This document shows positions 5,222 through 34,095 of a stretch of 44,677 nt of DNA, one piece after another (within the stretch, counting starts at the first letter, position 1; each line of letters starts with the position of its first letter). The notes beneath the pieces were generated by a model, which saw nothing but the letters and a program-made list of their open reading frames with translations, did no database searches and had not been told where the DNA came from. The translations under genes were made by a program, and so were the position numbers. Where the stretch lies: contig JANQQB010000142.1 of the NCBI GenBank assembly GCA_028285165.1, positions 1 to 44,677 on the forward strand. Reading direction: 5' to 3'. The DNA comes from Rhodobiaceae bacterium (lineage in GTDB: Bacteria; Pseudomonadota; Alphaproteobacteria; Rhizobiales; JANQQB01).

Positions 5222-8200
5222 ATGTCCCATATTGATGCCACGAATCCGAGCTGGAAATCCGAACGAATTCTGACCCGACGTGGTGCATCGACGCGGACAT
5301 TCGGGGGCAATGCCCTACCATCAGAAATGCTCGCTCTGGAACCGCGCGTCATGCTGGATGGCGCGATCGCGATGGCGGCCCTGGATCAGGCCGATGCCAA
5401 TCCTGACGCGCAGGACAATCAGCAGACGCAATCGAAAGAACCGGCGGCACAGTCCAATTCGGATTCCGAGGTTGGGAACAATTCCGCTTCCGAAGGCAGC
5501 GATGGGGCCGCTGATGCGACGCCGCCCGGCGATCGCATCGTCATAATCGTCGACGCGGCTGTTGCCGATGCGCAGGAGCTCCTGGCCGGCGTCGACCCAT
5601 CCGCGGAAATCTTCTATCTGTCCGCTGGCACCGACGGCGTGCATCAGATCACCGCCTTGCTTGCCGGCGAGACCGGTATTGCGGAACTGCATATCCTTTC
5701 GCATGGCGAAACGGGTTCGGTAACGCTCGGCAACATGGTTCTATCGGCTGCCAATGCGGAGGCCTATGCATCCGAGTTTACCGTTTGGGATTCCGCCTTG
5801 AAAGACGGTGCCGATATCCTGCTTTACGGATGCAATATCGGTGAGGATGCCGCGGGTAAGGCCTTTTTGGACGTGATGGCCGACCTGACGAACGCCGACC
5901 TTGCCGCTTCCGATGATCTGACCGGCGGTACCGGGCTCGGCGGTAATTGGGATCTGGAAGTGGCAACCGGGACAATCGAAGCCGGGTTGCCGCTCGATGC
6001 CGCCGCCGTTGACGGCTATGCCCATACCCTTTTGTTCGTGCCGACCAATACGGCGCCTTCGCTCAGCGGCCTGACGACGTCCCTTACAGTTCTGGAGCGC
6101 GAAGCCCCGGTTGTGTTGGACAGCGACGTCACGGTTGCTGATCAGGAGCAGAACTGGAACGGCGGCATCCTTACGATTTCCGGATTGGATGCGAACGACG
6201 TTCTCGCCGTGCAAACCGTTGGCAACGGGGCCGGTGAAACCAGCGTGACCGGAAACACCATTTCGGTCGGCGGGACCGCCGTTGCGACCTTTACCGGCGG
6301 AACTGCCGGCACCAACCTGGTGATTACGTTCAACGCGAACGCAAACAATGCCTCGGTCGAACGCGTGATCGAGAACCTGGTGTTCTCAAACGGATCGGAC
6401 ACGCCGACCGCCGCGCGTACGTTGTCCCTCACGCTGGTCGACGCGGGCGGCATGGAGGCCATCGGCACGACACAGACACTGACCGAGCGTCAAGGTTCCG
6501 CTAATCCGTTGGACGGCATCAGCGTGAGCCGTGCCGCCGCGCCGACATTCGTCGATATCGACGCAGACGGCGATCTCGATGTGTTTATGGGGTCGGTAAA
6601 CGGGGACTTGCGGTTCTTCCGGAATGTCGGTTCGCCTCAGGTTGCGGCCTATTCCGAAGAAACCGGCACGAACAACCCGTTTAACGGTCTTTCGGTAACG
6701 TTCGATTCTTCGCCGACCTCTGTCGACATCGACAATAACGGCGTCCTCGATGCCTTTGTCGGCCAACAGGACGGTACGGTTGTCTTTTTCCGGAATACGG
6801 GCACCGACACCGCTCCGGTCTTTGTAAGAGTGGATGGCGCCGGCAATCCTCTTAACGCCGTAGACACTGGCTTTCTCGCGGCCCCCACCTTCGTCGATAT
6901 CGACAACGACGGCGATTTCGATGCCTTTGTGGGCGCGCAAGACGGGAGCGTGTTATTTTACAGGAATACCGGCAATCCCAACGCGCCGGCGTTTTCTCTG
7001 GAAACCGGAACGAGTGATCCGTTCAACGGGTTCGACTTCGGGGCCCTTTCCAAACCGGATTTCGTCGATTTCGACGGTGACGGCGATTTCGATGCGATCG
7101 TCGGGTCGCTGGATAGCGGCGGCAAGCTGACCTATGTGCGCAACGACGGCACCCCGAACAATCCCAACTTCACGATCGTGACCGGCACGGCTGATCCGTT
7201 CAACCCGCTTTCGGTCCAGGCCGAGGCGCGTCCGGTCTTTGCGGACATCGACGGCGACGGCGATCCGGATCTTTTTGTGGGTGGGTTCGACGGGACAACC
7301 GCCTTTTTCGAGACGGATACGCGCTTCGACATTGCCGCTAACGTTACAGCGGTCAATTCCACGCCGGTTGTCACGCCGCCGGCGGCTTCGCTGAACGCGA
7401 CCGGACAAACGGATCTCGCTATTCACGGGGCTGGGTTTTCGGCAGCGGATGCAGATGCCGGTAGCGGTCCCGGAACTCTCACCCTGACGGTCGGCGAAGG
7501 CACGTTGACCGTTGACGTCGGCGATTCCGGCGTCACGATCATCAGCGGAAACGGATCCGGGACTGTTGTCCTCGAAGGGACGCTTGCCGAGGTCAACGCC
7601 CTGCTTGGCGGGGCCGGCACCGGGACGATCCTCTATCGCGCAACCGGCGTGTCTCCGTCGCCATCGACCACCATTTCGGTGACGTATAACGACCGCGGCG
7701 CAACCGGCGTCGATCCCGGATTGACCGCCGACGACTTGTCCGAAGAAGGCACTGCAAGCCAAACCATCACGATAACGCCGGGTAATCAGCCGCCGATCAT
7801 TATCGCAGATCGCGAAGGCGTTTTGTTCCGTGAGCTCGATGGCGACAACGATCCCGGCAATCTGGGCGGGCTGCAATTCCTGTCCGCCGTCAACTTCACG
7901 GTTACGGATCCCGACAGCACCGCGTTTACCGTCATTACGATCAACCTGACGAACACCCTTGGCAACGCGGTCGCGGGCGACACGTTGCGGGTTCGACCTG
8001 CGGACCACGGGGCTGTGGGCACAGCGCTGCGCGACAAGCTCGACAACGCGACCATTACGGGGAACGACGTCAGCAACCAGATTACCGTCACGGCGGGTCC
8101 GGGCGAAACCTTTACGGCCGCGGAAGTCGAGGCAATCCTCGAACGACTGCGCCTTGTTATCGCGGAAGACTCGCAGGCTGGTCCGGTAACCCGTGATAAG

Positions 8201-10522
8201 ACAATCACCGTGACCGATGATGGCAACGCGACCAGCGTGCCGTTCAATTTCCAGGTGGAAGTTGAAGGCGTCAACGATACGCCGACTTTCGAACGGGCCA
8301 ACCAATTCCCGAATGCGCAGGCCTTTACCGATGAGGACACACCGCTCAACGATGTGTTCCAGAGCGTGCGCGACTTCCATACGGCAAATACCAGCAATCT
8401 CAACCAATTCGATTTGCAAGACCGGGATGACGATACGAACGTCATCCGCGGGACGCCGGAACAAATGACGCTGCGTGTCACGAACGGCACTCTCACGTTC
8501 ACGCCCGGCAGCGGCGTGACCCTGGTCTCGGGTAACGGTACCAACGAAGTCGTGGTGGAAGGCACGATTGCCGCGCTGCGGAACTTTATCAACGCCAACG
8601 GTGATGCCAACCTGATCTACACGCCGAACACCGACTTCAACGGTGTCGACACGCTGACCATGCGTGTAACTGACCAGGGCGACCTGCCGATCGAGGGTAA
8701 CGTGCGGACGAGCGACGACCGGACGATCCTGATCAATGTCGCGGAGGGCAACAGGCCGCCGGTCAACACTGTGCCCGAACCGCAGGTCATGGATGAAGAC
8801 ACCACGCTCGTGTTCTCCGCGGCGAACGGAAACGGCCTCAGCGTTGTCGATGTCGACAGCGGTAACGGCAGTTTCACGACGACGCTGAGCGTGACCACGG
8901 GAACGCTTGAAGTGGCAACCGGCGGCGGGGCGACGATCGGGGGCAACGGCGGATCTGTTGTGACCGTGACTGGCACGCTCGCTCAGGTGAACGCCGCGCT
9001 GGCTTCGATCACCTACACGCCGCCGCCCGATTTCAACGGCCCCGTCACGATGACGGTCGATACGTCCGACGGCTTTACCGGCCAAGGCGGTCCTTTGACG
9101 GATAACGATACCGTTGCGATTACGGTCAATCCGGTTAACGACCAGCCGATCAATACGATGCCGTCCAATCAGGCCACATCGGACGATACGCCGCTTGTGT
9201 TCTCGCCGTCTGGCGGGAACGGCCTGTCGGTATCCGACATCGATGCCGGTTCGGGCGTGATGACCACGACGCTTTCTGTCACCTCGGGTACTCTTGCCGC
9301 GGCGAACGGGGGCGGCGCTACGGTCAACGGAAACGGGACGGGAACCGTCGTCATCTCCGGAACGACAGCGCAAATCAATGCGGCGCTCGCGGGACTTACC
9401 TATACGCCGGTTGACCTTGGCACTTCGAACCAGACGGTCATCTTGTCGATGACGACAAACGACAACGGCAATACCGGTTCCGGCGGCCCGCTGTCGGCGA
9501 CGAACCAGATCACCATCGAAGTGGACGGCGGATTGGTTTCTCCGGGCCCGGACGAAGATCCCGACCCGAATCCGACTCCTGAGGAGCCTCCTGAAAGCGA
9601 GACGGATGGCCTGTTTGACGGCGACCCGCTCGATGTCGGGCAATTGCCGTCCGGCCCTGCGCTGTTCGACGATCTCGAGCCGTTTTTGGGCGAGGATCTG
9701 GTCGATCCCATCGTCACGGCCGGCATTGGCGGTGAGCCGCCCCTCTTCGGAAACCCCTTCGATCCGGACAACCTGCCCGGCAACATCGATCTGGTGCCTG
9801 AATCCGATACCGGTCTGTTCGACAACGATGACATCACCCGGGATAACACGCCCGAACTGACCGGCCTGGCGCCCGCCGATACACGCGTTGTCATCACCTC
9901 CAGCATCGCGGGTGTGATCGGCACGGTCGAAACCGACGAGAACGGTGCCTGGCGGTTTCAGGCTCCCACCATGGTGGATGGCGCCCATGAGTTGATCGCC
10001 ACACCGATCGACGAGGAAGGCAGCGAGGGCACGGCATCCGTTCCCCTGCTTGTCATTATCGATACGCAGGCGCCGGAAACGCCGCCGGCCCCGAGCCTTG
10101 ATGGCGAAATCGATCAGCTGAGAGCCAACGAACAGGTGCCGCTGAGGGGCACTTCGGAACCGGGTGCCCGCATCATCGTCACCTCCGACAAGGACGGTGT
10201 CGTCGGCGAGGTTGTCACAGATGACAACGGCAATTGGTCGCTCGTCATTGCACCGCTGTCAGCGGACAGTCACGCCATCCAGGTGACGGCAGTCGACGTG
10301 GCCGGCAATTCAAGCGACGCGTCGCCGGCTCTGGCCCTGACTGTGCTTCCGGAAGATGATTCCGCTTCGCTTGGCGCCTCCGGTTCGCAAGAGCTTGCCC
10401 ATTTGCTGAGCGGTTTCACCGGTCCGGCTGGCGAAAGCAATGGTTTGCACGCAGACGCTATGGCTGCATCGAATTCGGGTGCCGTAGGATTTACGCGACA
10501 GGTTCAACTGGCCGGCCTCTAG
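5222..10522 (+). CDS. Giant secreted LEPR-XLL / DUF4347 / FG-GAP / cadherin-like protein
   Basis: About 1766 residues, acidic, Asp/Asn/Thr/Gly rich and nearly free of Cys. There is no Sec signal. Instead a LEPR-XLL-type motif (LALEPRVMLDGA, residues 37-48) is followed by a low-complexity Gln/Asn/Ser linker, then a DUF4347 domain at about 104-270 (IAELHILSHGETG, DILLYGCNIG). A beta-sandwich spans about 275-425. Five FG-GAP/VCBS-type repeats follow at about 430-700, and cadherin-like Ig domains at about 705-1440 that carry NxPP starts and DVDSG calcium-type motifs. A Pro/Glu-rich linker leads to two Big_6-like Ig domains near 1540-1730, then a short tail ending QVQLAGL. No RTX nonapeptides are visible. 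The start is uncertain: ATG 5222 is preferred over an in-frame TTG at 5204, and neither has a strong ribosome binding site. Probably a surface adhesin or matrix protein exported by the products of 10861-16810. Confidence 0.85.
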   Translation: MSHIDATNPSWKSERILTRRGASTRTFGGNALPSEMLALEPRVMLDGAIAMAALDQADANPDAQDNQQTQSKEPAAQSNSDSEVGNNSASEGSDGAADATPPGDRIVIIVDAAVADAQELLAGVDPSAEIFYLSAGTDGVHQITALLAGETGIAELHILSHGETGSVTLGNMVLSAANAEAYASEFTVWDSALKDGADILLYGCNIGEDAAGKAFLDVMADLTNADLAASDDLTGGTGLGGNWDLEVATGTIEAGLPLDAAAVDGYAHTLLFVPTNTAPSLSGLTTSLTVLEREAPVVLDSDVTVADQEQNWNGGILTISGLDANDVLAVQTVGNGAGETSVTGNTISVGGTAVATFTGGTAGTNLVITFNANANNASVERVIENLVFSNGSDTPTAARTLSLTLVDAGGMEAIGTTQTLTERQGSANPLDGISVSRAAAPTFVDIDADGDLDVFMGSVNGDLRFFRNVGSPQVAAYSEETGTNNPFNGLSVTFDSSPTSVDIDNNGVLDAFVGQQDGTVVFFRNTGTDTAPVFVRVDGAGNPLNAVDTGFLAAPTFVDIDNDGDFDAFVGAQDGSVLFYRNTGNPNAPAFSLETGTSDPFNGFDFGALSKPDFVDFDGDGDFDAIVGSLDSGGKLTYVRNDGTPNNPNFTIVTGTADPFNPLSVQAEARPVFADIDGDGDPDLFVGGFDGTTAFFETDTRFDIAANVTAVNSTPVVTPPAASLNATGQTDLAIHGAGFSAADADAGSGPGTLTLTVGEGTLTVDVGDSGVTIISGNGSGTVVLEGTLAEVNALLGGAGTGTILYRATGVSPSPSTTISVTYNDRGATGVDPGLTADDLSEEGTASQTITITPGNQPPIIIADREGVLFRELDGDNDPGNLGGLQFLSAVNFTVTDPDSTAFTVITINLTNTLGNAVAGDTLRVRPADHGAVGTALRDKLDNATITGNDVSNQITVTAGPGETFTAAEVEAILERLRLVIAEDSQAGPVTRDKTITVTDDGNATSVPFNFQVEVEGVNDTPTFERANQFPNAQAFTDEDTPLNDVFQSVRDFHTANTSNLNQFDLQDRDDDTNVIRGTPEQMTLRVTNGTLTFTPGSGVTLVSGNGTNEVVVEGTIAALRNFINANGDANLIYTPNTDFNGVDTLTMRVTDQGDLPIEGNVRTSDDRTILINVAEGNRPPVNTVPEPQVMDEDTTLVFSAANGNGLSVVDVDSGNGSFTTTLSVTTGTLEVATGGGATIGGNGGSVVTVTGTLAQVNAALASITYTPPPDFNGPVTMTVDTSDGFTGQGGPLTDNDTVAITVNPVNDQPINTMPSNQATSDDTPLVFSPSGGNGLSVSDIDAGSGVMTTTLSVTSGTLAAANGGGATVNGNGTGTVVISGTTAQINAALAGLTYTPVDLGTSNQTVILSMTTNDNGNTGSGGPLSATNQITIEVDGGLVSPGPDEDPDPNPTPEEPPESETDGLFDGDPLDVGQLPSGPALFDDLEPFLGEDLVDPIVTAGIGGEPPLFGNPFDPDNLPGNIDLVPESDTGLFDNDDITRDNTPELTGLAPADTRVVITSSIAGVIGTVETDENGAWRFQAPTMVDGAHELIATPIDEEGSEGTASVPLLVIIDTQAPETPPAPSLDGEIDQLRANEQVPLRGTSEPGARIIVTSDKDGVVGEVVTDDNGNWSLVIAPLSADSHAIQVTAVDVAGNSSDASPALALTVLPEDDSASLGASGSQELAHLLSGFTGPAGESNGLHADAMAASNSGAVGFTRQVQLAGL
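6517..7330 (+). repeat. Five tandem FG-GAP/VCBS repeats inside the giant protein
   Basis: Five copies of a D-x-D-x-(D/N)-G-x-x-D calcium-binding loop (VDIDADGD, VDIDNNGV, VDIDNDGD, VDFDGDGD, ADIDGDGD), each followed by F-(V/M)-G and a short strand ending in FFRN-type residues. The loops start at 6551, 6722, 6893, 7064 and 7241, giving periods of 171, 171, 171 and 177 bases (57-59 residues). The pattern fits blades of an integrin-like propeller, though five visible blades are fewer than the usual seven. Confidence 0.8.
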
Positions 10523-10529
10523 GGCCGGC
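10511..10529 (+). terminator. Hairpin at the end of the giant gene
   Basis: GCCGGCC and GGCCGGC flank the 5-base loop TCTAG; the loop contains the TAG stop codon of the giant protein. The stem can extend by three more pairs, including one G-T. No T-run follows, so it may be an RNA-stabilising 3' end or a partial terminator rather than a full intrinsic terminator. Confidence 0.4.
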
Positions 10530-10860
10530 TAGCCTGACGACAGGGATCTTCCGCTTCCGAGCGGATGCCAACCGACTTTGCTTTTCCTGCCCCAGACTTT
10601 CCCGTTTCCGCCCGAATCGAACGGTAGCGTCCGTGAATCGATGCCTGAGCCTGCCGGTTTCAGTCGTGCTCGGATCGAAGGGCTGTGAGCCCGCGTGACG
10701 TCGAAATGTGTTGCCGGAAGTCTACACTCGCTTTCTGAACATGGCTCACTTCGGCCGTCTCGCGCATTTCGTTTGTGTTACATTCGTCGAATTTCTAAAC
10801 AGGTCAGTGGGTGTAGACTGTACAGACTGACGCTCAACGGGCGCACAACAAGGCATAACA
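10530..10860. other. Intergenic region before the TolC-like gene, with a spaced inverted repeat
   Basis: No gene is convincing here. The 9-mer AGTCTACAC at 10719-10727 recurs in inverted orientation (GTGTAGACT) at 10811-10819, 83 bases apart. The region is long enough for a separate promoter for the export genes. The inverted pair could be a looping operator or chance. Confidence 0.35.
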
Positions 10861-12423
10861 ATGCACTGTATTCACACGTTGAATCTTCGCGGTTCCAGAC
10901 TCCTGCCGATCGCCTTTGCCTTTGTGCTCGCAGGGTGCGCCGCCGTCGATCCGATAACAACCCTTGAGAGAAGTGCGCTCGCAAAAGACGACATCGCCCT
11001 GATCCAAGCCGAACAGGAGCCGGTTCAGAGCACCATCACGCTCTACCGGGCCATGGCGCGGGCGTTGAAATACAACCTCGATTCCAGGGTCGATCTGGCG
11101 CGGGAGCATTTTGCCTCCGGCGACTACACCCTGGCAAAGTTCGATCTCTTACCCTCCAGCGACCTCGACGGCGGTTATGAGGGGCGCAGCAACACACAGG
11201 CATCGAGTTCGGAATCGGTTCTGACCGGCACCCAGTCCCTTGAGCCGTCGACTTCGCTCGACAACAACCGCGGTGTCGTCGAGCTGTCCACCGTCTGGAG
11301 CGCGCTCGATCTCGGCGCCAGCTATCTGCGTCTCAAGCAGAAGAAGAACCAGATCTACATCGCCCGCGAGGCCCGGCGCACAACCATCAATTCGCTGACC
11401 CGCGAAGTTCGCCGTACCTATTGGCGCCTGGCAGCGGCCAACGCGATCAGCGGGGAATTGTCGCGACTGCGCGCGGCGGCGTCGCAAGGTATCCGGCGTG
11501 CCCGGCAAGCGGAGGCCGAAGGGCTGGAATCCGCGGAAGCGGCTGTCGAGTTCGAACGCCGCATGTTGCGCATCATCAAGGCGACCACGGTGCGTCAGCG
11601 TGAACTGGCGCTGGCTCGTGCCGAACTTGCGGCCCTGATGGGTCTCGATCCCGCCAAAACGTTCCGGATCGGCGGGGCACGGTTCGTCGATCACAGAACG
11701 CCGGGGGTCGAACACCGCACCGCAGATCTCAGATCCATTGCACTGATTCATCGCCCCGAGCTCTATGAAGCCGATTACAAGGCGCGTATCGCCAGCCTTG
11801 AGAAGTCCATCGACATCATTACGGCACTGCCGAGTGTGCAGGCCAATCTCGATATCAACGCCGATTCCAATTCGTTCCTCGTCAACGAATTCTGGGTCGA
11901 ATACGGTGCCAAACTGGTCGGATCGATTCCGCGACTGCTGTCGCTGCCCGCACGCATTGAGCGGGCGGACGCGCGCAATGCGCTCGCCGACGAACAACGG
12001 CGGGCCCTGACCATGGCGGTGATCTCGCAGGTTCACATCGCCCACCAGGCCTATCACGACAAACAACGTGAATTCGGCCTGGCCCAGCGCCTGACCGCCG
12101 CCGAACGGCGGAATTTCCAGATCCAGCGCGACAAGGAACGGGATTCGCTGGCGAACGAAAGCGCGTTTCTCGAAGCCTGGGCACAGTTCGTTCAGGCTCG
12201 CCTCGATACGTTCGGTGCATTCGCCGAATACCAGGAGGCCTATGCGCGCCTCCTGGAATCCGTTGGCGTCGATTTCACCGCCGTCGATCTCACCGACACC
12301 AGCGTGGACGGCGTCACGGCCGGGCTGCGCGCCTTCTTCTCGGGTGGTTCGAGCGACGTCCTGCGGCAATATTGGGAAGACGCTCGCCGGATCGAACGCG
12401 AAGCAATGGCAGCCGGCGCTTAG
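10861..12423 (+). CDS. TolC-family outer-membrane channel lipoprotein
   Basis: A 520-residue outer-membrane efflux protein expected to trimerise into the channel-tunnel of a trans-envelope exporter. The leader ends in a lipobox (VLAGC, Cys26), as in NodT/OprM-type channels. Two long alpha-helical, Ala/Arg/Glu-rich halves follow, for example residues 165-260 and 370-470, with a strand signature near FVNEFWVE-like sequence between them (about 340-350), typical of OEP repeats. AAGG lies before the ATG. It opens the export genes downstream of the giant protein; its adaptors are encoded at 12601, 13329 and probably within 14687. Confidence 0.85.
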   Translation: MHCIHTLNLRGSRLLPIAFAFVLAGCAAVDPITTLERSALAKDDIALIQAEQEPVQSTITLYRAMARALKYNLDSRVDLAREHFASGDYTLAKFDLLPSSDLDGGYEGRSNTQASSSESVLTGTQSLEPSTSLDNNRGVVELSTVWSALDLGASYLRLKQKKNQIYIAREARRTTINSLTREVRRTYWRLAAANAISGELSRLRAAASQGIRRARQAEAEGLESAEAAVEFERRMLRIIKATTVRQRELALARAELAALMGLDPAKTFRIGGARFVDHRTPGVEHRTADLRSIALIHRPELYEADYKARIASLEKSIDIITALPSVQANLDINADSNSFLVNEFWVEYGAKLVGSIPRLLSLPARIERADARNALADEQRRALTMAVISQVHIAHQAYHDKQREFGLAQRLTAAERRNFQIQRDKERDSLANESAFLEAWAQFVQARLDTFGAFAEYQEAYARLLESVGVDFTAVDLTDTSVDGVTAGLRAFFSGGSSDVLRQYWEDARRIEREAMAAGA

Positions 12424-12452
12424 GCCTTGCAGGCTTGCGTGGTGAGCGCGGT

Positions 12453-12480
12453 GCGCCGGGCGATCGATCTCGCCCGGCGC
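12453..12480 (+). promoter_or_regulatory. Strong intra-operon hairpin between the TolC-like gene and the first adaptor
   Basis: A perfect 11-bp GC-rich stem (GCGCCGGGCGA / TCGCCCGGCGC) with the 6-base loop TCGATC, 30 bases after the TolC-like stop codon and about 120 bases before the next start. There is no T-run. It is placed to modulate read-through or protect the upstream RNA from 3' decay, setting different levels for channel and adaptors. Confidence 0.5.
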
Positions 12481-12600
12481 GAACGAACCGCATATCGCTT
12501 GCGCCCGAACACGCTCATTTGAAAACACCAGTCGGCGCTTTGGCGAGGGTACACAAAATGGTATTCAGGGAATCGTCGCTTCCTTGAAGGCAGGCCCGGC

Positions 12601-13332
12601 ATGAAGACGGCCACGATAACCCTCCTTGCGCTTCTCTCGCTCCCCAGCCTCGCGCTGGCGCAGGACACGATGGTGGCGCGCGGCCTCGTGGTGGCAAAGG
12701 AACGCGCGACGCTGTCCAGCAACCTCGCCGCACCGGTCGCGGCCGTGCATGCCGACCTTGGCGACCCGGTCGCCAAAGGTACTGTGCTGCTTACGTTCGA
12801 TTGTTCGATCCTGGAAGCGTCGCAGGCGCAGGTCGAGGCGCAGATCAGCGGTGCCGAAGCCAATCTGCGGGCCAAGGAACGGCTCTTGAAACTGCGATCC
12901 TCGAGCCAGTTGGAGGTCGATCTCGCGAAAGCGGAGCTGGACGCGCTTGGCGCCGAGATGAAGAGCGTTCTGGCGAAACTGAGATATTGCGCAGTCCGGG
13001 CGCCTTTCGACGGACGGATTGCGCGCCGCTATGTCGACCCGTTCGAAACGCTGTCGCAGGACAAACCGCTGTTCGACATAGTCGGGGATTCCTTGCGGGT
13101 GCATGTGATTGCACCGTCCACCTGGATGCGCTGGATCGTGCCCGGCGAACCGTTTGAGGTCGAGATCGAAGAGATCGGCAAGCGGTTCTCGGCGTCCGTG
13201 GCCGTGATCGGTGCCCGGGTCGATCATGCCAGCCAGCTTGTGGAATTGTACGGTGAGTTCGCCTCTCCGCCGGAAGGTTTGCTGCCGGGAATGAGTGGCC
13301 GCGTTTCCTTCCCCCGCCAGGCCGGCCAATGA
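12601..13332 (+). CDS. HlyD/RND-type periplasmic adaptor protein
   Basis: A 243-residue periplasmic adaptor. A cleavable signal peptide (about residues 1-20, ending SLALA) is followed by the first lipoyl half (about 25-65), a short coiled-coil hairpin (about 70-125), the second lipoyl half with the family signature VRAPFDGRIARRYVDP, and a beta-barrel region to the end. It is shorter than typical RND adaptors, missing most of the membrane-proximal domain. GAAGGCAGG precedes the ATG. Its stop overlaps the next start (ATGA at 13329-13332), showing translational coupling. It presumably bridges the TolC-like channel to an inner-membrane component. Confidence 0.85.
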   Translation: MKTATITLLALLSLPSLALAQDTMVARGLVVAKERATLSSNLAAPVAAVHADLGDPVAKGTVLLTFDCSILEASQAQVEAQISGAEANLRAKERLLKLRSSSQLEVDLAKAELDALGAEMKSVLAKLRYCAVRAPFDGRIARRYVDPFETLSQDKPLFDIVGDSLRVHVIAPSTWMRWIVPGEPFEVEIEEIGKRFSASVAVIGARVDHASQLVELYGEFASPPEGLLPGMSGRVSFPRQAGQ

Positions 13333-14687
13333 AACCGGAACCGCCGGAAAGCGCCCGAAGCGGCGCGCTGGAAAACCTCTCCACGGTTCTTGACCTCGAA
13401 CGCAAGGCCCGGGCCGCCGAGAGACCCGGCGATCTCGCCTTCGTCATGGTCAACGAGACCGGTCGTGTCCTGCCCTACAGGACGGCGATCCGCTTCGATC
13501 TGCGAGGCCGTTCGGCCAGGGTCCGCGCAATCAGTGGCGTCAGCGATGTGGATCGCACGGCGCCCTTTGTCCAATGGATCGAAAAAGCGGTCGTCGCCTG
13601 GATGGAGGGCGCAGACCAGGGACCGGTCTTCCCGGTCGGCCGGGACACCTTGCCGGACCGCTTGCAGAACGGAGATCCGGAGTGGTTTCCCGGAGCCGGA
13701 CTGATCGTTCTCTTGCGCAATCGCGATGGGGTGGCGTTCGGCGGCTTGCTTCTGTTGCGGGCACCGGCGTGGTCGGATCAGGACAAGATGATCGCTTCGG
13801 TGCTGGCGGACGCCTACGGCCATGCCAGCCTGACCGTCGAACCGCGCGCGGCTCGGCGTCGCCGGCGCCTTGTCACGCCGGCACGGGTCTTTGCCGCGCT
13901 TGTCCTGGTATCGGTGGCCTCCCTGTTCTGGCCGGTTCGGCTCTCGGTCGTGGCGCCGGCCGAAGTCACGGCAAAGGATGCCAGTGTGGTTGCGGCTCCG
14001 TTTGCGAGCACTGTCGAGACCGTCGCCGTTGCCCCCAATGCCGCTGTCGAACAAGGCGATGTCCTGTTCTCGCTCGATCGCACCGAAGTGGAAGCCCGGC
14101 ACGAAGCTGCGAAGCAGGAATTGGGGGTGGCCGAAGCTCGGTATCGCCGGGCCCTGCAAGGCGCTTTCTCCGAGGCCGAGGAAAGAGCGGACGTCGCCAT
14201 CCTTCTGGAAGAAATCCGCCTGAAGGAAACCGAACTCACCTATACCGGGACGCTCTTGGGATTGTCGTCGGTTCGCGCCGAACGAAATGGCGTTGCGGTT
14301 TTCAACGACCCGAACAACTGGATCGGGCGCCCGGTCACGGTGGGCGAGCGGGTCATGCTATTGGCGGATCCGTCGCGAACCTGGCTCGAAATCGCTGTTC
14401 CGGCCGCTGATGCGATCAATCTGGCGTCCGGCGCGGAAGTGCTGTTTTTCACCAACGTAAACCCACTCGAACCCATCAAGGGCACGGTCCGGCAAACCAG
14501 TTTTGAGGCGGACATCGATAAGGATGGTGTGGCGAGCTATCGGATCCAGGCCGATTTCCTCGATGCGGAAGGCGCACCGCGGCTCGGGTTGACGGGCACC
14601 GCCAAGATTTTCGGCGATGATGTCACGCTGTTTTACTTCCTGTTTCGCCGCCCCTTGTCCGTGATCCGTCGCTATCTGGTGTTCTGA
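13329..14687 (+). CDS. GAF-like domain fused to membrane-anchored HlyD-type adaptor
   Basis: A 452-residue inner-membrane protein. Residues about 30-165 look like a GAF-type cytoplasmic domain (GAGLIVLLRNRDGVAFGGLLLL is the core strand region, given here in part). One membrane segment lies at about 188-204, after a run of arginines that keeps the N-terminus inside. The periplasmic part has lipoyl-like strands (VVAAPFASTVETVAVAPN), a helical hairpin at about 255-315 and a barrel domain ending near FYFLFRRPL. A GAF-like N-terminus is unusual on a HlyD adaptor; it could dock substrate or sense a ligand. Start and stop overlap both neighbours (13329-13332 and 14687), so the three genes are tightly coupled. 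Confidence 0.75.
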   Translation: MKPEPPESARSGALENLSTVLDLERKARAAERPGDLAFVMVNETGRVLPYRTAIRFDLRGRSARVRAISGVSDVDRTAPFVQWIEKAVVAWMEGADQGPVFPVGRDTLPDRLQNGDPEWFPGAGLIVLLRNRDGVAFGGLLLLRAPAWSDQDKMIASVLADAYGHASLTVEPRAARRRRRLVTPARVFAALVLVSVASLFWPVRLSVVAPAEVTAKDASVVAAPFASTVETVAVAPNAAVEQGDVLFSLDRTEVEARHEAAKQELGVAEARYRRALQGAFSEAEERADVAILLEEIRLKETELTYTGTLLGLSSVRAERNGVAVFNDPNNWIGRPVTVGERVMLLADPSRTWLEIAVPAADAINLASGAEVLFFTNVNPLEPIKGTVRQTSFEADIDKDGVASYRIQADFLDAEGAPRLGLTGTAKIFGDDVTLFYFLFRRPLSVIRRYLVF

Positions 14688-16810
14688 TGACGCAGCCGGG
14701 CGAGAGCGTCGCCCTGCCCCGGCTTCGCGACGACCTGACATTGCACCATGGCGGACGAGACGGATCCGGCGCGGATCGCTGGGTCGTGGAGGATTTTGCC
14801 CGCAACCGCTTTTTTGTCGTCGGCAGCAAACAATTGGAGATCCTCAGGCACTGGGCGCCTATTCAGCAGGCTGCGCTTGCCGAGCGGGTCGCCGGTCGAA
14901 GCGGGATGGCGGTAACGGAAGACGACATTGCTGCGCTGGCCAGCTTCCTGCAGCGCAACGAACTGGTCGCTCCGGAGCCCGACGCCACGCTGGAAAGCTT
15001 TACGGCCAAGGAGAACGCGAAACGGAGCAATTGGGCCTATAACTACATCTCGAAATACTTCTTCATGAAGTTTCCGCTGGTCAATCCGCAGGCCTTTCTC
15101 AAGGCCACCTACCCCATCGTCTCCGTTGTCTATTCCCGTTTGTTCCTGCTGTTCAGCCTGATCGCCACGCTGACTGGCCTGTTTCTGGTGTTTCGTCAGT
15201 TCGATGCCTTCCGCACAAGCGCGGCCGAACTCATCTCGTTCGAGTATGCGGGATGGTTCGTCGTGGCGCTGGTGTTTTCCAAGATCTGCCATGAGCTCGG
15301 CCACGGCTACACGGCTATCCGGTACGGATGCCGTGTCCCCTCCATGGGCGTCGCCCTCATGGTTTTCTGGCCGGTCCTGTATACGGAGACCTCGGCCGCA
15401 TGGAAGCTGAAATCTCCGGCTGAACGCCAGTTGATCAACGGTGCCGGCATCCTGACGGAATTGCTGATTGCCGGCTATGCGACGCTGTTGTGGAGTTTCC
15501 TGCCGCCGGGGCCGGCCCAGAACGCGGCGTTCTATCTGGCCGTCATCGGTTGGACATTGAGCCTGGCCGTCAACCTCAATCCGTTCATGCGGTTCGACGG
15601 CTATTACATTCTGTCCGACATGGTGGGGCTTCCCAACCTGCACCAGCGCTCGTCCGATCTCGCGCGCTGGTTCCTGCGGCGCTATCTGCTTGGTCTCGGC
15701 GACCCGCCGCCGGAGCCCATGCCGACACGCAAGCGTCGGCTTGTCGTGGTGTTCGGATTTCTGCTTTGGGCGTATCGCCTCGTCCTGTTTCTGACGATCG
15801 CCCTTTTGGTCTATCACTTCTTTATCAAGGTGGTCGGGCTGATCCTGTTTGCCGTGGAGATCGGCTATCTCATCCTGCGACCGATATACGGAGAAATAAA
15901 AGTGTGGTGGCGACGACGGGCGGATGCCCGCCTCAATGGCCGGTCCGCGACCGGGCTGGCCCTTGTGCTGATCCTGATTGCGGGGGTGGTCTTCCCGTGG
16001 CAGAGCACGGTCGGCAGCGCCGGGGTCCTGACAAGCGGCCAGTTTGCGCGCGTGTTCACCCGCAGTGAAGGGCGTCTGACGGCCGTCCATGCGGAGGCAG
16101 GCAAGGCGGTCAAGGCCGGCGACGTCCTGTTTGAGCTGGCCTCCCCTAAGCTCGATCTGGAAATCTCGCAAGCCGCGGCCGAAGCCCGGGTTGCGGAAAT
16201 CCGGATGCGCCAGGCCCTTCTCAACGTCCGGCAATCGGATCAGTTCCAGGTCTTCGGGTCGGAACGCCAGCGGGTCGCCCGACTGATGACGGACCTGCAG
16301 GCCAAAGCCTCGCAGCAGACGATCCGGGCGCCTTTCGATGGTCGCGTTACCGATGTCGCGAGCCAACTCGAGCCCGGTCGCTGGCTGCCGGACCGGATGG
16401 AGCTTGCCCTCGTGCTCGGGACCGAAGGCCCAGTCGTTTGGGGCTACGTCGCCGAAAGCGATCTTCAGCGGCTCAGTGTCGGCGCCAGCGCGCGTTTTTT
16501 CAGTCATACGCCTGAAATGGACCCGATCCCGCTGACGCTGACCGCCATGGACGTCGATGCGGCGGCCCGCCTGCCGTTTCCCGGATTGATCGCGGAATTC
16601 GGAGGAACGATCGCTGCAGAAGAGACCGACAACCGGCAATTCCGACCGGTCGATTCCTATTACCGGGTGCGGCTCGACGTCATCGATCCGGATTTTGCTC
16701 TCGACAGGCTGCATTACGGTCAGGTGGTGATCGACGGGACCAGGGAAAGCCTGTTTGCGAAGGCCTGGAGACAGGCGGCAGCGATCATCGTGCGCGAGGC
16801 GAGTTTCTGA
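14687..16810 (+). CDS. M50 (site-2 protease type) metalloprotease fused to HlyD-like adaptor module
   Basis: A 707-residue multi-pass membrane protein. Residues 1-110 contain a small domain possibly of PqqD/winged-helix type. The M50 core has several membrane helices with the zinc motif HELGH (His202, Glu203, His206) and the second motif NLNPFMRFDG, whose Asp304 is the expected third ligand. More helices follow to about 405 and again at 424-441. The C-terminal 265 residues are HlyD-like: a lipoyl half (EGRLTAVHAEAGKAVKAGD), helical hairpin at about 485-545, then IRAPFDGRVTDV and a barrel. Similar proteins are annotated as putative peptide zinc metalloproteases. It is the only inner-membrane core candidate in an operon with TolC and HlyD proteins, so it may process or translocate the giant protein. 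That role is inferred. Confidence 0.8.
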   Translation: MTQPGESVALPRLRDDLTLHHGGRDGSGADRWVVEDFARNRFFVVGSKQLEILRHWAPIQQAALAERVAGRSGMAVTEDDIAALASFLQRNELVAPEPDATLESFTAKENAKRSNWAYNYISKYFFMKFPLVNPQAFLKATYPIVSVVYSRLFLLFSLIATLTGLFLVFRQFDAFRTSAAELISFEYAGWFVVALVFSKICHELGHGYTAIRYGCRVPSMGVALMVFWPVLYTETSAAWKLKSPAERQLINGAGILTELLIAGYATLLWSFLPPGPAQNAAFYLAVIGWTLSLAVNLNPFMRFDGYYILSDMVGLPNLHQRSSDLARWFLRRYLLGLGDPPPEPMPTRKRRLVVVFGFLLWAYRLVLFLTIALLVYHFFIKVVGLILFAVEIGYLILRPIYGEIKVWWRRRADARLNGRSATGLALVLILIAGVVFPWQSTVGSAGVLTSGQFARVFTRSEGRLTAVHAEAGKAVKAGDVLFELASPKLDLEISQAAAEARVAEIRMRQALLNVRQSDQFQVFGSERQRVARLMTDLQAKASQQTIRAPFDGRVTDVASQLEPGRWLPDRMELALVLGTEGPVVWGYVAESDLQRLSVGASARFFSHTPEMDPIPLTLTAMDVDAAARLPFPGLIAEFGGTIAAEETDNRQFRPVDSYYRVRLDVIDPDFALDRLHYGQVVIDGTRESLFAKAWRQAAAIIVREASF

Positions 16811-16897: not shown

Positions 16898-16981
16898 TCC
16901 TAAGGTGCGCAAACGTGGCCCTTGGAGTCCGGCAAGACCTTATCCTTTGAAAAAAGCGGAACGATTTCAAGGAGACTTCAG

Positions 16982-18547
16982 ATGGCCGAAGCGACCGCCC
17001 GGCGGCGGAGACGGCGTGCACATGACCATCAATCCGGCAATACCGGACCGGAACAGCTCCCCTGGCGGCACATCGTCAACCCGAACCCGCCGCTCGCCCC
17101 GCTCTCGGCCGAGCAACTCGCTGAGATCCATGACATGTCGATGCGGATCCTCGAGGATCACGGGATCGAAGTCGTCAGCGATCGGGCACGGGACCTCTAC
17201 CGGAAGGCCGGAGCGGTTGTCGACGATGATACCCATATCGTGCGTATTGGCCGGGAAGCGGTCATGGAGACGATCGCCAAGGCCCCGGACACCTTCACTC
17301 TGACGCCGCGCAATCCGGAGCGGGCGATCGAAATCGGCGGCAATACGATTAACTTCGGCCTCGTTTCGGGACCGCCCAACGTCCATGATCGCGTATCAGG
17401 TCGTCGCCCCGGAAACTTTGACGATTATCAGACGCTCATAAAGCTCGGCCAGCATTTCAACATCATCCATTTTTTCGGCAATCAGGCGGTGGCACCGACG
17501 GACATGCCGCCGAATTCCAGGCATCTGGATACCTATCGCGTCAATCTCATGCTCAGCGACAAGGTGTTCAGCGCCGTGTCGATCGGCAGCGGTCGAACGC
17601 GCGATGCTGTCGAGATGATTGCCATCGCGCGCGGAAAATCGCTTGCCGACCTCGTGGACGAACCCGCGACATTCACGAACATCAACGTCAACTCACCGCG
17701 AAAACTCGATACGGAAATGGCGGACGGCGCCATGCAGATGGCGGCCCTTGGCCAGGCGACGATCGTCACGCCGTTCACGCTGATGGGTGCGATGACGCCA
17801 GTCACGCTGGCCGGCGCGCTTGCGCAGCAAAATGCGGAAGCCCTGTTCGGCATCATGCTCACCCAGCTTGTCCGCCCGGGGGCTCCGGTGATCTACGGCG
17901 CATTCACCTCGAATGTCGATCTGAGGTCCGGTGCCCCGGCCTTCGGGACGCCTGAAAACGGCAAGGCCAATGTAATCGGCGGTCAGTTGGCTCGGTGGTA
18001 CGGCCTTCCCTACCGCACAAGCGCCTGCAACGCCTCGAATTGTGTCGATGCCCAGGCGGTGTATGAGACTGAAATGGCACTATGGGGCGCTGTGATGGGC
18101 CACGGCAACGTGGTCTACCATGCGGCGGGATGGCTGGAAGGCGGTCTGGTAGCGTCCTTTGAGAAACTGATTGTCGATGTCGAGATGCTGCAGGCCATGG
18201 CCGAGTTCCTGAAGCCCATCGACCTGTCGCGTGACGCGTTCGGCATCGAAGCCATCGGCGACGTCGATCCGGGCGGGCACTTCTTCGGCAGCCCGCACAC
18301 GCTGGAACGCTATCGCGATGCGTTCTACGAACCGATTGTCAGCGACTGGCAGAACAACGAAAACTGGCAACAGGCCGGCGGCAAGGACGGCACGGAGCGG
18401 GCCACGGCGTTGTGGCAGGCGGCGCTGGAGGCGTTTGAGGCTCCGGCGATCGATCCCGGTCGGGTCGAGGCGCTTGACGCGTATATCGCGCAGCGGAAAC
18501 TGGAAATTGGTGACGACGAACCCACATCGCCGATAGAATTGCCCTGA
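16982..18547 (+). CDS. MttB-family (non-pyrrolysine) methylamine/betaine corrinoid methyltransferase
   Basis: A 521-residue TIM-barrel methyltransferase of the trimethylamine methyltransferase (MttB) superfamily. Family members move a methyl group from a quaternary or tertiary amine to a corrinoid protein in the cytoplasm. The whole frame is read without an in-frame TAG, so it belongs to the non-pyrrolysine branch that includes the glycine betaine methyltransferase MtgB. Characteristic stretches are the N-terminal LAEIHDMSMRILEDHGIEV, the NFGLVSGPPNVHD loop and YRTSACNASNCVDAQA. The ATG at 16982 has AAGGAG at 16969-16974; an in-frame start at 16922 lacks one. No corrinoid protein (MttC), reactivase (RamA) or partner methyltransferase lies nearby, so the substrate cannot be named. 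Confidence 0.85.
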   Translation: MAEATARRRRRRAHDHQSGNTGPEQLPWRHIVNPNPPLAPLSAEQLAEIHDMSMRILEDHGIEVVSDRARDLYRKAGAVVDDDTHIVRIGREAVMETIAKAPDTFTLTPRNPERAIEIGGNTINFGLVSGPPNVHDRVSGRRPGNFDDYQTLIKLGQHFNIIHFFGNQAVAPTDMPPNSRHLDTYRVNLMLSDKVFSAVSIGSGRTRDAVEMIAIARGKSLADLVDEPATFTNINVNSPRKLDTEMADGAMQMAALGQATIVTPFTLMGAMTPVTLAGALAQQNAEALFGIMLTQLVRPGAPVIYGAFTSNVDLRSGAPAFGTPENGKANVIGGQLARWYGLPYRTSACNASNCVDAQAVYETEMALWGAVMGHGNVVYHAAGWLEGGLVASFEKLIVDVEMLQAMAEFLKPIDLSRDAFGIEAIGDVDPGGHFFGSPHTLERYRDAFYEPIVSDWQNNENWQQAGGKDGTERATALWQAALEAFEAPAIDPGRVEALDAYIAQRKLEIGDDEPTSPIELP

Positions 18548-33294: not shown

Positions 33295-34095
33295 TCAGTG
33301 CAGGATCTGGCTGAGGAACAGTTTCGTGCGTTCGTGTTCCGGATTGGTGAAGAACGCTTCCGGTTCATTCTCTTCAATGATTTGGCCGGCGTCCATGAAG
33401 ATCACCCGGTTGGCGACCTGACGGGCAAAGCCCATTTCGTGGGTGACGCACAGCATGGTCATGCCCTCTTCCGCGAGGCCGACCATCACTTCCAGCACTT
33501 CCTTGATCATTTCCGGGTCAAGCGCGGAGGTGGGTTCGTCGAACAGCATGATGCGCGGGCTCATGCACAGCGAGCGGGCGATCGCCACGCGCTGCTGCTG
33601 ACCGCCGGACAATTGACCGGGATATTTCAGCGCCTGTTCGGGGATCTTCACCCGTTCCAGGTAATGCATCGCGACTTCCTCGGCTTCCTTTTTGGGCATG
33701 TTGCGGACCCAGATCGGCGCCAGCGTGCAGTTTTCCAGGATGGTGAGGTGCGGGAACAGGTTGAAGTGCTGAAACACCATGCCGACCTCACGACGGATTT
33801 CGTCGATCCGCTTGAGATCGTTGGTCAGTTCGATGCCGTCGACCACGATGGAACCGCGCTGATGTTCTTCCAACCGGTTGATGCAGCGGATCATCGTCGA
33901 CTTGCCGGACCCGGACGGGCCGCACACGACGATCCGTTCGCCGCGCATCACCCGCAGATTGATGTCCTTCAGGACGTGGAAGTCGCCATACCATTTGTGC
34001 ATACCGTCGATGTCGATCGCGACATCGGTTTCCGAAATTTGCATCTTCGACCGATCGGCGGAGAGGTCGGAAGCTGTGACTACGTTCTCACTCAT
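33295..34095 (-). CDS. aapP: General L-amino acid ABC transporter ATP-binding protein
   Basis: A 266-residue ABC ATPase of polar amino-acid uptake systems. Walker A is GPSGSGKST, the Q loop is [11 protein letters not shown], the signature is [15 protein letters not shown], Walker B is [13 protein letters not shown] and the H loop is VTHEMGFA. It powers import through the AapQ/AapM permeases on the cytoplasmic face. It is the last gene of the aap operon, 19 bases after aapM. A GGGGAAT element precedes the ATG. It is also the only ABC ATPase in the window and belongs to an importer, so it is not a candidate to energise the exporter at 10861-16810. Confidence 0.94.

Follow-up and report, generated by a model that had tools for sequence, protein, structure and literature searches.

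How does a giant protein leave a diderm cell when the genes beside it supply an outer-membrane exit and adaptors, and no pump? The question is raised by five genes at positions 5222-16810 of the 44,677-nt contig JANQQB010000142.1 from a Rhodobiaceae bacterium; the whole of this stretch is referred to here as the window. The genes encode a giant protein, a TolC lipoprotein, a secreted small HlyD, a membrane HlyD and a fusion of an M50 protease with an HlyD module (M50-HlyD). A first-pass annotation had described this content, and its open reading frames (ORFs) and domains were recovered as described, with all five ORFs on the + strand and overlaps of 4 and 1 bases among the last three genes. 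It was also right that none of the five encodes an ATP-binding cassette (ABC), resistance-nodulation-cell division (RND) or major facilitator superfamily (MFS) engine, and that the ABC ATPase at 33295-34095, the sole one tested in the window, is of the amino-acid importer type. No exit had been known for some of the largest bacterial proteins, whose open frames reach ~19,400 codons in this family. On balance, the five genes probably constitute a dedicated envelope export system for giants that carry a LEPR-XLL leader and usually a [FL][ST]xQ[LV] tail, in which Sec would supply the power, the M50 protease would cleave the leader, and the adaptors and TolC would form the way out. As such, the set appears to be a previously undescribed export machine for LEPR-tagged giants that lacks the usual ABC pump.

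One genome per species was scanned with an M50-HlyD alignment, which gave 353 relatives, and the best 80 loci were kept and their gene maps drawn with homology priority. The gene set recurs in order in most of the 80 loci, from Alpha-, Beta- and Gammaproteobacteria, Nitrospirota and others, and the arrangement [giant]-TolC-small HlyD-membrane HlyD-M50-HlyD was mapped in Azospirillum, Rhizobium, Pseudomonas, Pectobacterium, Serratia, Marinomonas, Methylomonas, Nitrospira, Pelagibacteraceae and others. Such ordered recurrence is far beyond chance, and the set is an old, widespread unit. The giant gene varies in position (upstream, downstream, divergent or between adaptors) yet remains with the unit. 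A motif-based test detected no ABC ATPase within the operon, either in the window or in the 80 loci, and ABC, RND or MFS genes adjoining it are sporadic, with RND/MFS pumps in Azospirillum (L053) and possibly in some Pseudomonas. An ABC or RND engine linked elsewhere to the same adaptors, which the first-pass annotation had named as an objection to its proposal, was not consistently present in these loci. The unit ranges from soil and marine bacteria to Escherichia coli plasmids: a complete five-gene cassette flanked by insertion sequences, with a giant of 4460 aa, is found on E. coli IncF plasmids (L296:4830-24581, NZ_CP081687.1) and occurs at >=80% coverage in 22 of 5426 complete E. coli genomes, where the annotation of the set reads only TolC, RND adaptor, HlyD and site-2 protease. 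In some Pseudomonas (L100, L103, L111), the module is preceded by genes for a 511-aa protein, a second HlyD and a TolC, which may constitute an MFS pump that shares TolC. In Serratia marcescens (L079), genes for an HlyD and a 700-aa ABC exporter adjoin the module on the opposite strand.

The window giant consists, in order, of a leader ending in LEPRVMLDGA, DUF4347, FG-GAP repeats, Big/Ig-like domains and GFTRQVQLAGL at the C-terminus. It matches the curated LEPR-8K model NF012209 with 18.9 bits (24.0 bits in the genome search) against a curated cut-off of 17. The pattern LExRxx[FL]D[AG]A was present in 30/30 DUF4347 giants with a complete N-terminus, the window's included, and in six giants without DUF4347; the apparent exceptions comprised unrelated ORFs, one gene interrupted by an assembly gap (L087) and another whose start is doubtful (L122). 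In agreement with the first-pass annotation, which saw no Sec signal on the giant, no Sec-like N-terminus was seen on the LEPR leaders by the hydropathy of their most hydrophobic 12 residues (median 1.41, vs. 2.33 for small HlyDs and 2.36 for TolC proteins). The window leader scores 1.95, the second-highest among leaders, in a stretch that includes the invariant Asp46. At the other end, the [FL][ST]xQ[LV] tail or a close equivalent was found in 21/38 operon giants and in 19/34 of the further LEPR giants, whereas shuffled sequences gave 1.0 on average and at most 6. A single universal C-terminal signal was rejected: the strict pattern occurs in about half of the giants, and several misses are near variants. 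A minority of LEPR giants have a membrane-like WRxFDPLPVL tail, e.g., LSAGFVAWLLRSGSLLASFLVSLPAWRHFDPLPVL, in place of [FL][ST]xQL (L105:12322-16770, L164:545-10270, L257). The longest LEPR frame, with a LEPR-8K match, spans 19,427 codons (G334:C115:112865-112924), and others reach 10,000-15,000 codons.

A search of genomes for M50-HlyD fusions accompanied by LEPR giants, suggested by the first-pass annotation, ties the two closely together. At the class level (240 genomes), a leader profile (E<1e-3) matched 9/11 genomes with M50-HlyD and 0/229 others. At the phylum level (399 genomes), it matched 73/77 genomes with M50-HlyD of the window's clade (clade 1) vs. 1/322 others, a count that covers 28 families (Fisher 7e-74, uncorrected for relatedness) and in which the matches in carriers are partly expected by construction, as the profile was built from operon giants, whereas the lack of matches in non-carriers owes nothing to that construction. 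The lone leader-positive genome without M50-HlyD is 57% complete. The independent NCBIfam LEPR-8K model (E<1e-3) gave 41/90 genomes with M50-HlyD vs. 1/309 others. Additional LEPR giants are frequent in carriers; they are encoded on other contigs and share the leader and tail. Conversely, ~15 DUF4347 giants in genomes without M50-HlyD start directly at DUF4347 and have no leader, and all nine of these with intact ends have tails like those of the type I secretion system (T1SS), as opposed to 1/72 LEPR or operon giants. DUF4347 itself was thus rejected as the coupling signal. Since the leader is coupled to M50-HlyD and the DUF4347 giants of genomes without M50-HlyD are leaderless and T1SS-tailed, LEPR-XLL behaves as the address tag of what would be an M50-HlyD export system. 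A curated but unexplained tag is in this way tied to one exporter in both directions. DUF4347 is accordingly borne by two kinds of cargo, with leaderless, T1SS-tailed examples at L141-L152 and L158.

The same counts bear on the possibility that a small molecule or peptide is the true cargo of the module and the giant merely a co-inherited neighbor. The relatives of its M50 domain, i.e., the daptide, epipeptide and pearlin proteases, do act on small peptides. However, the coupling at the phylum level is to the leader itself, unlinked LEPR giants bear the same tail motif in trans, and the place of the giant in the operon varies, all of which render a small cargo scarcely credible.

M50-HlyD carries features that are conserved in site-2 (M50) proteases, namely HExxH and a distal Asp, both predicted in transmembrane (TM) helices; besides these residues, N296, P299 and Y306 are likewise invariant among 71 sequences. 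Its AlphaFold2 model (mean predicted local distance difference test score, 91.9) contains an N-terminal domain, an all-helical membrane core and a barrel-sandwich with a hairpin, and Foldseek matched the HlyD module to MacA, ZneB and MexA. Residues 13-397 match the daptide HExxH protease model NF041824 (1.6e-46, 159.1 bits), below the family cut-off of 300. The N-terminal domain resembles PqqD and the recognition elements (RREs) of ribosomally synthesized and post-translationally modified peptides (RiPPs). Pfam alone is too weak for this assignment, with PqqD matches in 2/8 clade 1 members (best, 0.06), and it is supported by the structure model and by the sister clade described below, where the match reaches 1.3e-4.

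What, then, would drive a giant across the inner membrane? A clue is provided by 17 genomes with only weaker M50-HlyD matches, which lack the clade 1 leader; those examined hold a sister clade of M50-HlyD. Sister operons comprise a giant, often SapC, a membrane HlyD, M50-HlyD, a SecA paralogue and a small HlyD, with TolC in some. Their giants begin with the classical LEPR form LEPRLLLSAD, and LEPR-8K matches (E<=0.003) were present in 13/13 sister-clade genomes. The SecA paralogue (~650-670 aa; SecA_DEAD, 1e-89 to 1e-100) adjoins M50-HlyD in 10/12 sister loci (L297-L306, L319, L323) and in no clade 1 locus. A single SecA was found in 17/18 clade 1 genomes tested, and that of the window genome is the housekeeping one. 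The dedicated paralogue of the sister operons points to SecA and Sec as the motor, and, most simply, SecA would serve both clades, with the sister clade alone encoding a dedicated copy. The exporter thereby gains a motor that can be tested.

The first-pass annotation had proposed that M50-HlyD is itself the inner-membrane core. In its strongest form, M50-HlyD would be the translocase: the leader would enter the M50 cavity and the chain would pass through an M50-HlyD oligomer without Sec, powered by the proton-motive force, by translation or by folding on the outside. In keeping with this, the operon has no engine, M50-HlyD and the membrane HlyD are its only components that span the inner membrane, the leader bears little resemblance to a Sec signal, and EpeP, a RiPP-linked M50 protease, has been described as likely to perform cleavage as well as export of the epipeptide EpeX (PMC10885120). 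Against it, sister operons add a SecA, and an energy source is not evident. Moreover, to our knowledge M50 proteases do not serve as protein channels for chains of thousands of residues. We therefore consider a translocase role for M50-HlyD rather unlikely. An ABC-less system in which M50-HlyD handles the giant is strongly supported by the leader coupling, the conserved catalytic residues and the T1SS-free carriers discussed below, but the part of the proposal that made M50-HlyD the engine is not, since a protease and adaptor has no obvious energy source and sister operons encode a SecA paralogue.

Several points weigh against a dedicated, Sec-powered system. SecA was seen only in the sister clade, and 2/12 of its loci are without it. 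Judged by hydropathy, the leader does not resemble a classical Sec signal, so the use of Sec would need special targeting. Export, cleavage and complex formation are read from sequence and models. In addition, a T1SS is also present in 42/45 module genomes, as judged by T1SS HlyD, including the window's own, which carries one of the LssB type elsewhere (L169). An unlinked T1SS-type ABC exporter might hence act as the engine in trans and share the adaptors and TolC of the operon. Nevertheless, no ABC is consistently linked to the module, the giants have no T1SS-like tails, and the module occurs in three genomes without T1SS HlyD (Marinobacterium jannaschii and two Pelagibacteraceae), each with a tail-bearing giant adjoining it. 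No T1SS-class ABC was found in these three either; by score, the ABC exporters present belong to the MsbA, MsbA-related, Smd-type, PglK-like or cyclic-peptide classes, none near the T1SS cut-off. The T1SS-free set consists of two partial marine genomes and one draft, in which a contig end truncates the giant gene. Given the presence of the module in these genomes, a type I ABC acting in trans is not a likely general engine, and we regard this explanation as very improbable for the system as a whole.

Behind the leader, DUF4347 is predicted to be a cysteine peptidase with a fold of the caspase/legumain (clan CD) type and a His-Cys dyad, in which Cys is conserved in 30/30 giants and His in 25/30. 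The top PDB match of its AlphaFold2 model was Tce1 (9QPE), described by its authors as a putative cysteine protease (PMC13323088), followed by legumain and caspases. Designed TIM barrels, returned by a PDB sequence search with DUF4347, matched over a short stretch only and were discarded as chance. The presence of a peptidase-like domain behind the leader could also fit a different arrangement, in which the giant leaves by another route and the M50-HlyD/TolC set retains, anchors and releases it, with the M50 protease cutting the retained leader. There is precedent in LapA-type giants, which an N-terminal plug keeps in TolC until proteolysis releases them. However, M50 sites lie inside the inner membrane and not in the periplasm, TolC and three adaptors seem excessive for release alone, and the leader and M50-HlyD are coupled as tightly as would be expected of a targeting tag. 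A role restricted to retention is in our view decidedly unlikely.

Returning to dedicated, Sec-powered export, we suggest the following sequence of events. The leader would be recognized at the inner membrane by M50-HlyD, with the cytoplasmic PqqD/RRE-like domain as the likely reader of the tag. The chain would then cross the inner membrane via Sec, driven by the housekeeping SecA in the window clade and by the dedicated paralogue in the sister clade, as the sister operons suggest. The M50 intramembrane protease may cleave or release the leader, given its HExxH...D site and its relatives that trim RiPP precursors. By analogy with their families, the three adaptors, of which two are anchored in the membrane, would contribute their HlyD domains to a periplasmic conduit docked on the TolC lipoprotein, so the giant could reach the surface without a free periplasmic intermediate. 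It is also conceivable that DUF4347 later cuts the giant at the surface. Whether this amounts to a distinct diderm secretion system, with an RRE-like reader, SecA passage, in-membrane trimming and TolC exit via three adaptors, in two clades with housekeeping or own SecA and mobile to E. coli plasmids, is nearly an even question, and we lean slightly toward doubt.

The system has partial counterparts. It shares HlyD-type adaptors, a TolC-type exit and a repeat-rich, non-Sec-like giant cargo in the operon with T1SSs (LssB/HlyB-HlyD-TolC), e.g., LapBCE with giant adhesins. It differs from them in encoding no HlyB/LssB/PrtD-type ABC ATPase within the operon and, in three carrier genomes, no T1SS-class ABC at all; in pairing an N-terminal LEPR tag with an [FL][ST]xQL tail instead of an RTX/T1SS tail; and in fusing an M50 protease to an adaptor. 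None of its adaptors passes the type I HlyD model TIGR01843 (cut-off, 208.65 bits; small HlyD 21.3, membrane HlyD 23.4, M50-HlyD 20.6), and the small HlyD, which has an N-terminal Sec-type signal, scores as an RND-type membrane fusion protein (MFP) above the RND_mfp cut-off. That feature and the TolC partner are shared with RND/MFS tripartite pumps, but here the conserved operon is without an RND or MFS transporter and the cargo is a giant protein. With the M50 proteases of RiPP pathways (daptide HExxH, YydH/LiaK, EpeP, TglG), M50-HlyD has the catalytic motifs in common, and the daptide match spans its N-terminal domain; it differs in falling below the family cut-off, in its fused HlyD module and in a giant partner cargo instead of a short peptide. 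The accessory Sec system (SecA2/SecY2) of Gram-positive giant adhesins likewise combines a dedicated SecA, as in the sister clade, with an atypical leader for giant surface proteins. Unlike that system, the window clade has no SecA paralogue, no SecY2 or Asp proteins were seen in the operon, and a Gram-negative TolC/adaptor exit and an M50 protease are present. Finally, the window giant belongs to both the NF012209 and PF14252 families, which are annotated without an exporter, whereas here the LEPR leader, and not DUF4347, is tied to M50-HlyD. No description of this gene set was found in the open-access literature, and an account in a closed journal is possible. A paper on hlyD and phage resistance in Dickeya concerns PrtE and is unrelated.

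Table 1. Coordinates of the five genes and of their predicted domains and motifs in the window.
Feature	Position	Strand	Basis
Giant LEPR-XLL/DUF4347 protein (P0001), predicted cargo, 1766 aa, ATG at 5222	5222..10522	+	Domain hits; operon partner in most of 80 loci
LEPR leader motif LEPRVMLDGA, residues 39-48	5336..5365	+	L39, E40, R42, D46, A48 invariant in 30 giants; own-genome leader-profile match 2.7e-10; NF012209
DUF4347 (PF14252) domain, predicted His161/Cys204 dyad	5540..6031	+	Pfam 9.9e-53, 178.7 bits vs. gathering cut-off 24.6; AlphaFold2 model
C-terminal motif FTRQV, candidate cargo-family tail signal [FL][ST]xQ[LV]	10490..10504	+	Recurrence in operon and unlinked LEPR giants
TolC/OEP-type outer-membrane factor (P0002), lipoprotein, 520 aa	10861..12423	+	PF02321 2.4e-18; N-terminal lipobox LAGC
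Small periplasmic HlyD/RND-type adaptor (P0003), signal sequence, C68 and C130 invariant	12601..13332	+	TIGR01730 107.5 bits; family alignment
Membrane HlyD adaptor (P0004): cytoplasmic N-terminal domain, one TM segment, barrel-sandwich domain	13329..14687	+	PF13437 3.7e-12
M50-HlyD fusion (P0005), 707 aa: PqqD/RRE-like domain, M50 intramembrane protease, HlyD barrel-sandwich and hairpin	14687..16810	+	Pfam PF02163 over cut-off; AlphaFold2 model
PqqD/RRE-like N-terminal domain of M50-HlyD, about residues 13-92	14723..14962	+	Three strands and three helices in model
M50 active-site HELGH, residues 202-206	15290..15304	+	H202, E203, H206 invariant 71/71
Predicted third zinc ligand Asp304 in FMRFDGYY	15596..15598	+	Invariant 71/71
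HlyD/MFP module of M50-HlyD	15995..16606	+	Pfam; Foldseek; model; alpha-hairpin residues 487-542 (16145-16312)

With regard to the two remaining adaptors, the invariant cysteines of the small HlyD were conserved across 40 sequences and probably form a disulphide. A GAF domain in the membrane HlyD was rejected, as the GAF model gave a weak match in 1/36 members and the GAF-like label is weakly supported. The operon is preceded in the window by a hybrid sensor histidine kinase gene (235-2658) and followed 3′, on the same strand, by a gene at 16922-18547 for a trimethylamine methyltransferase-like protein (MttB family; 288 bits vs. a cut-off of 525).

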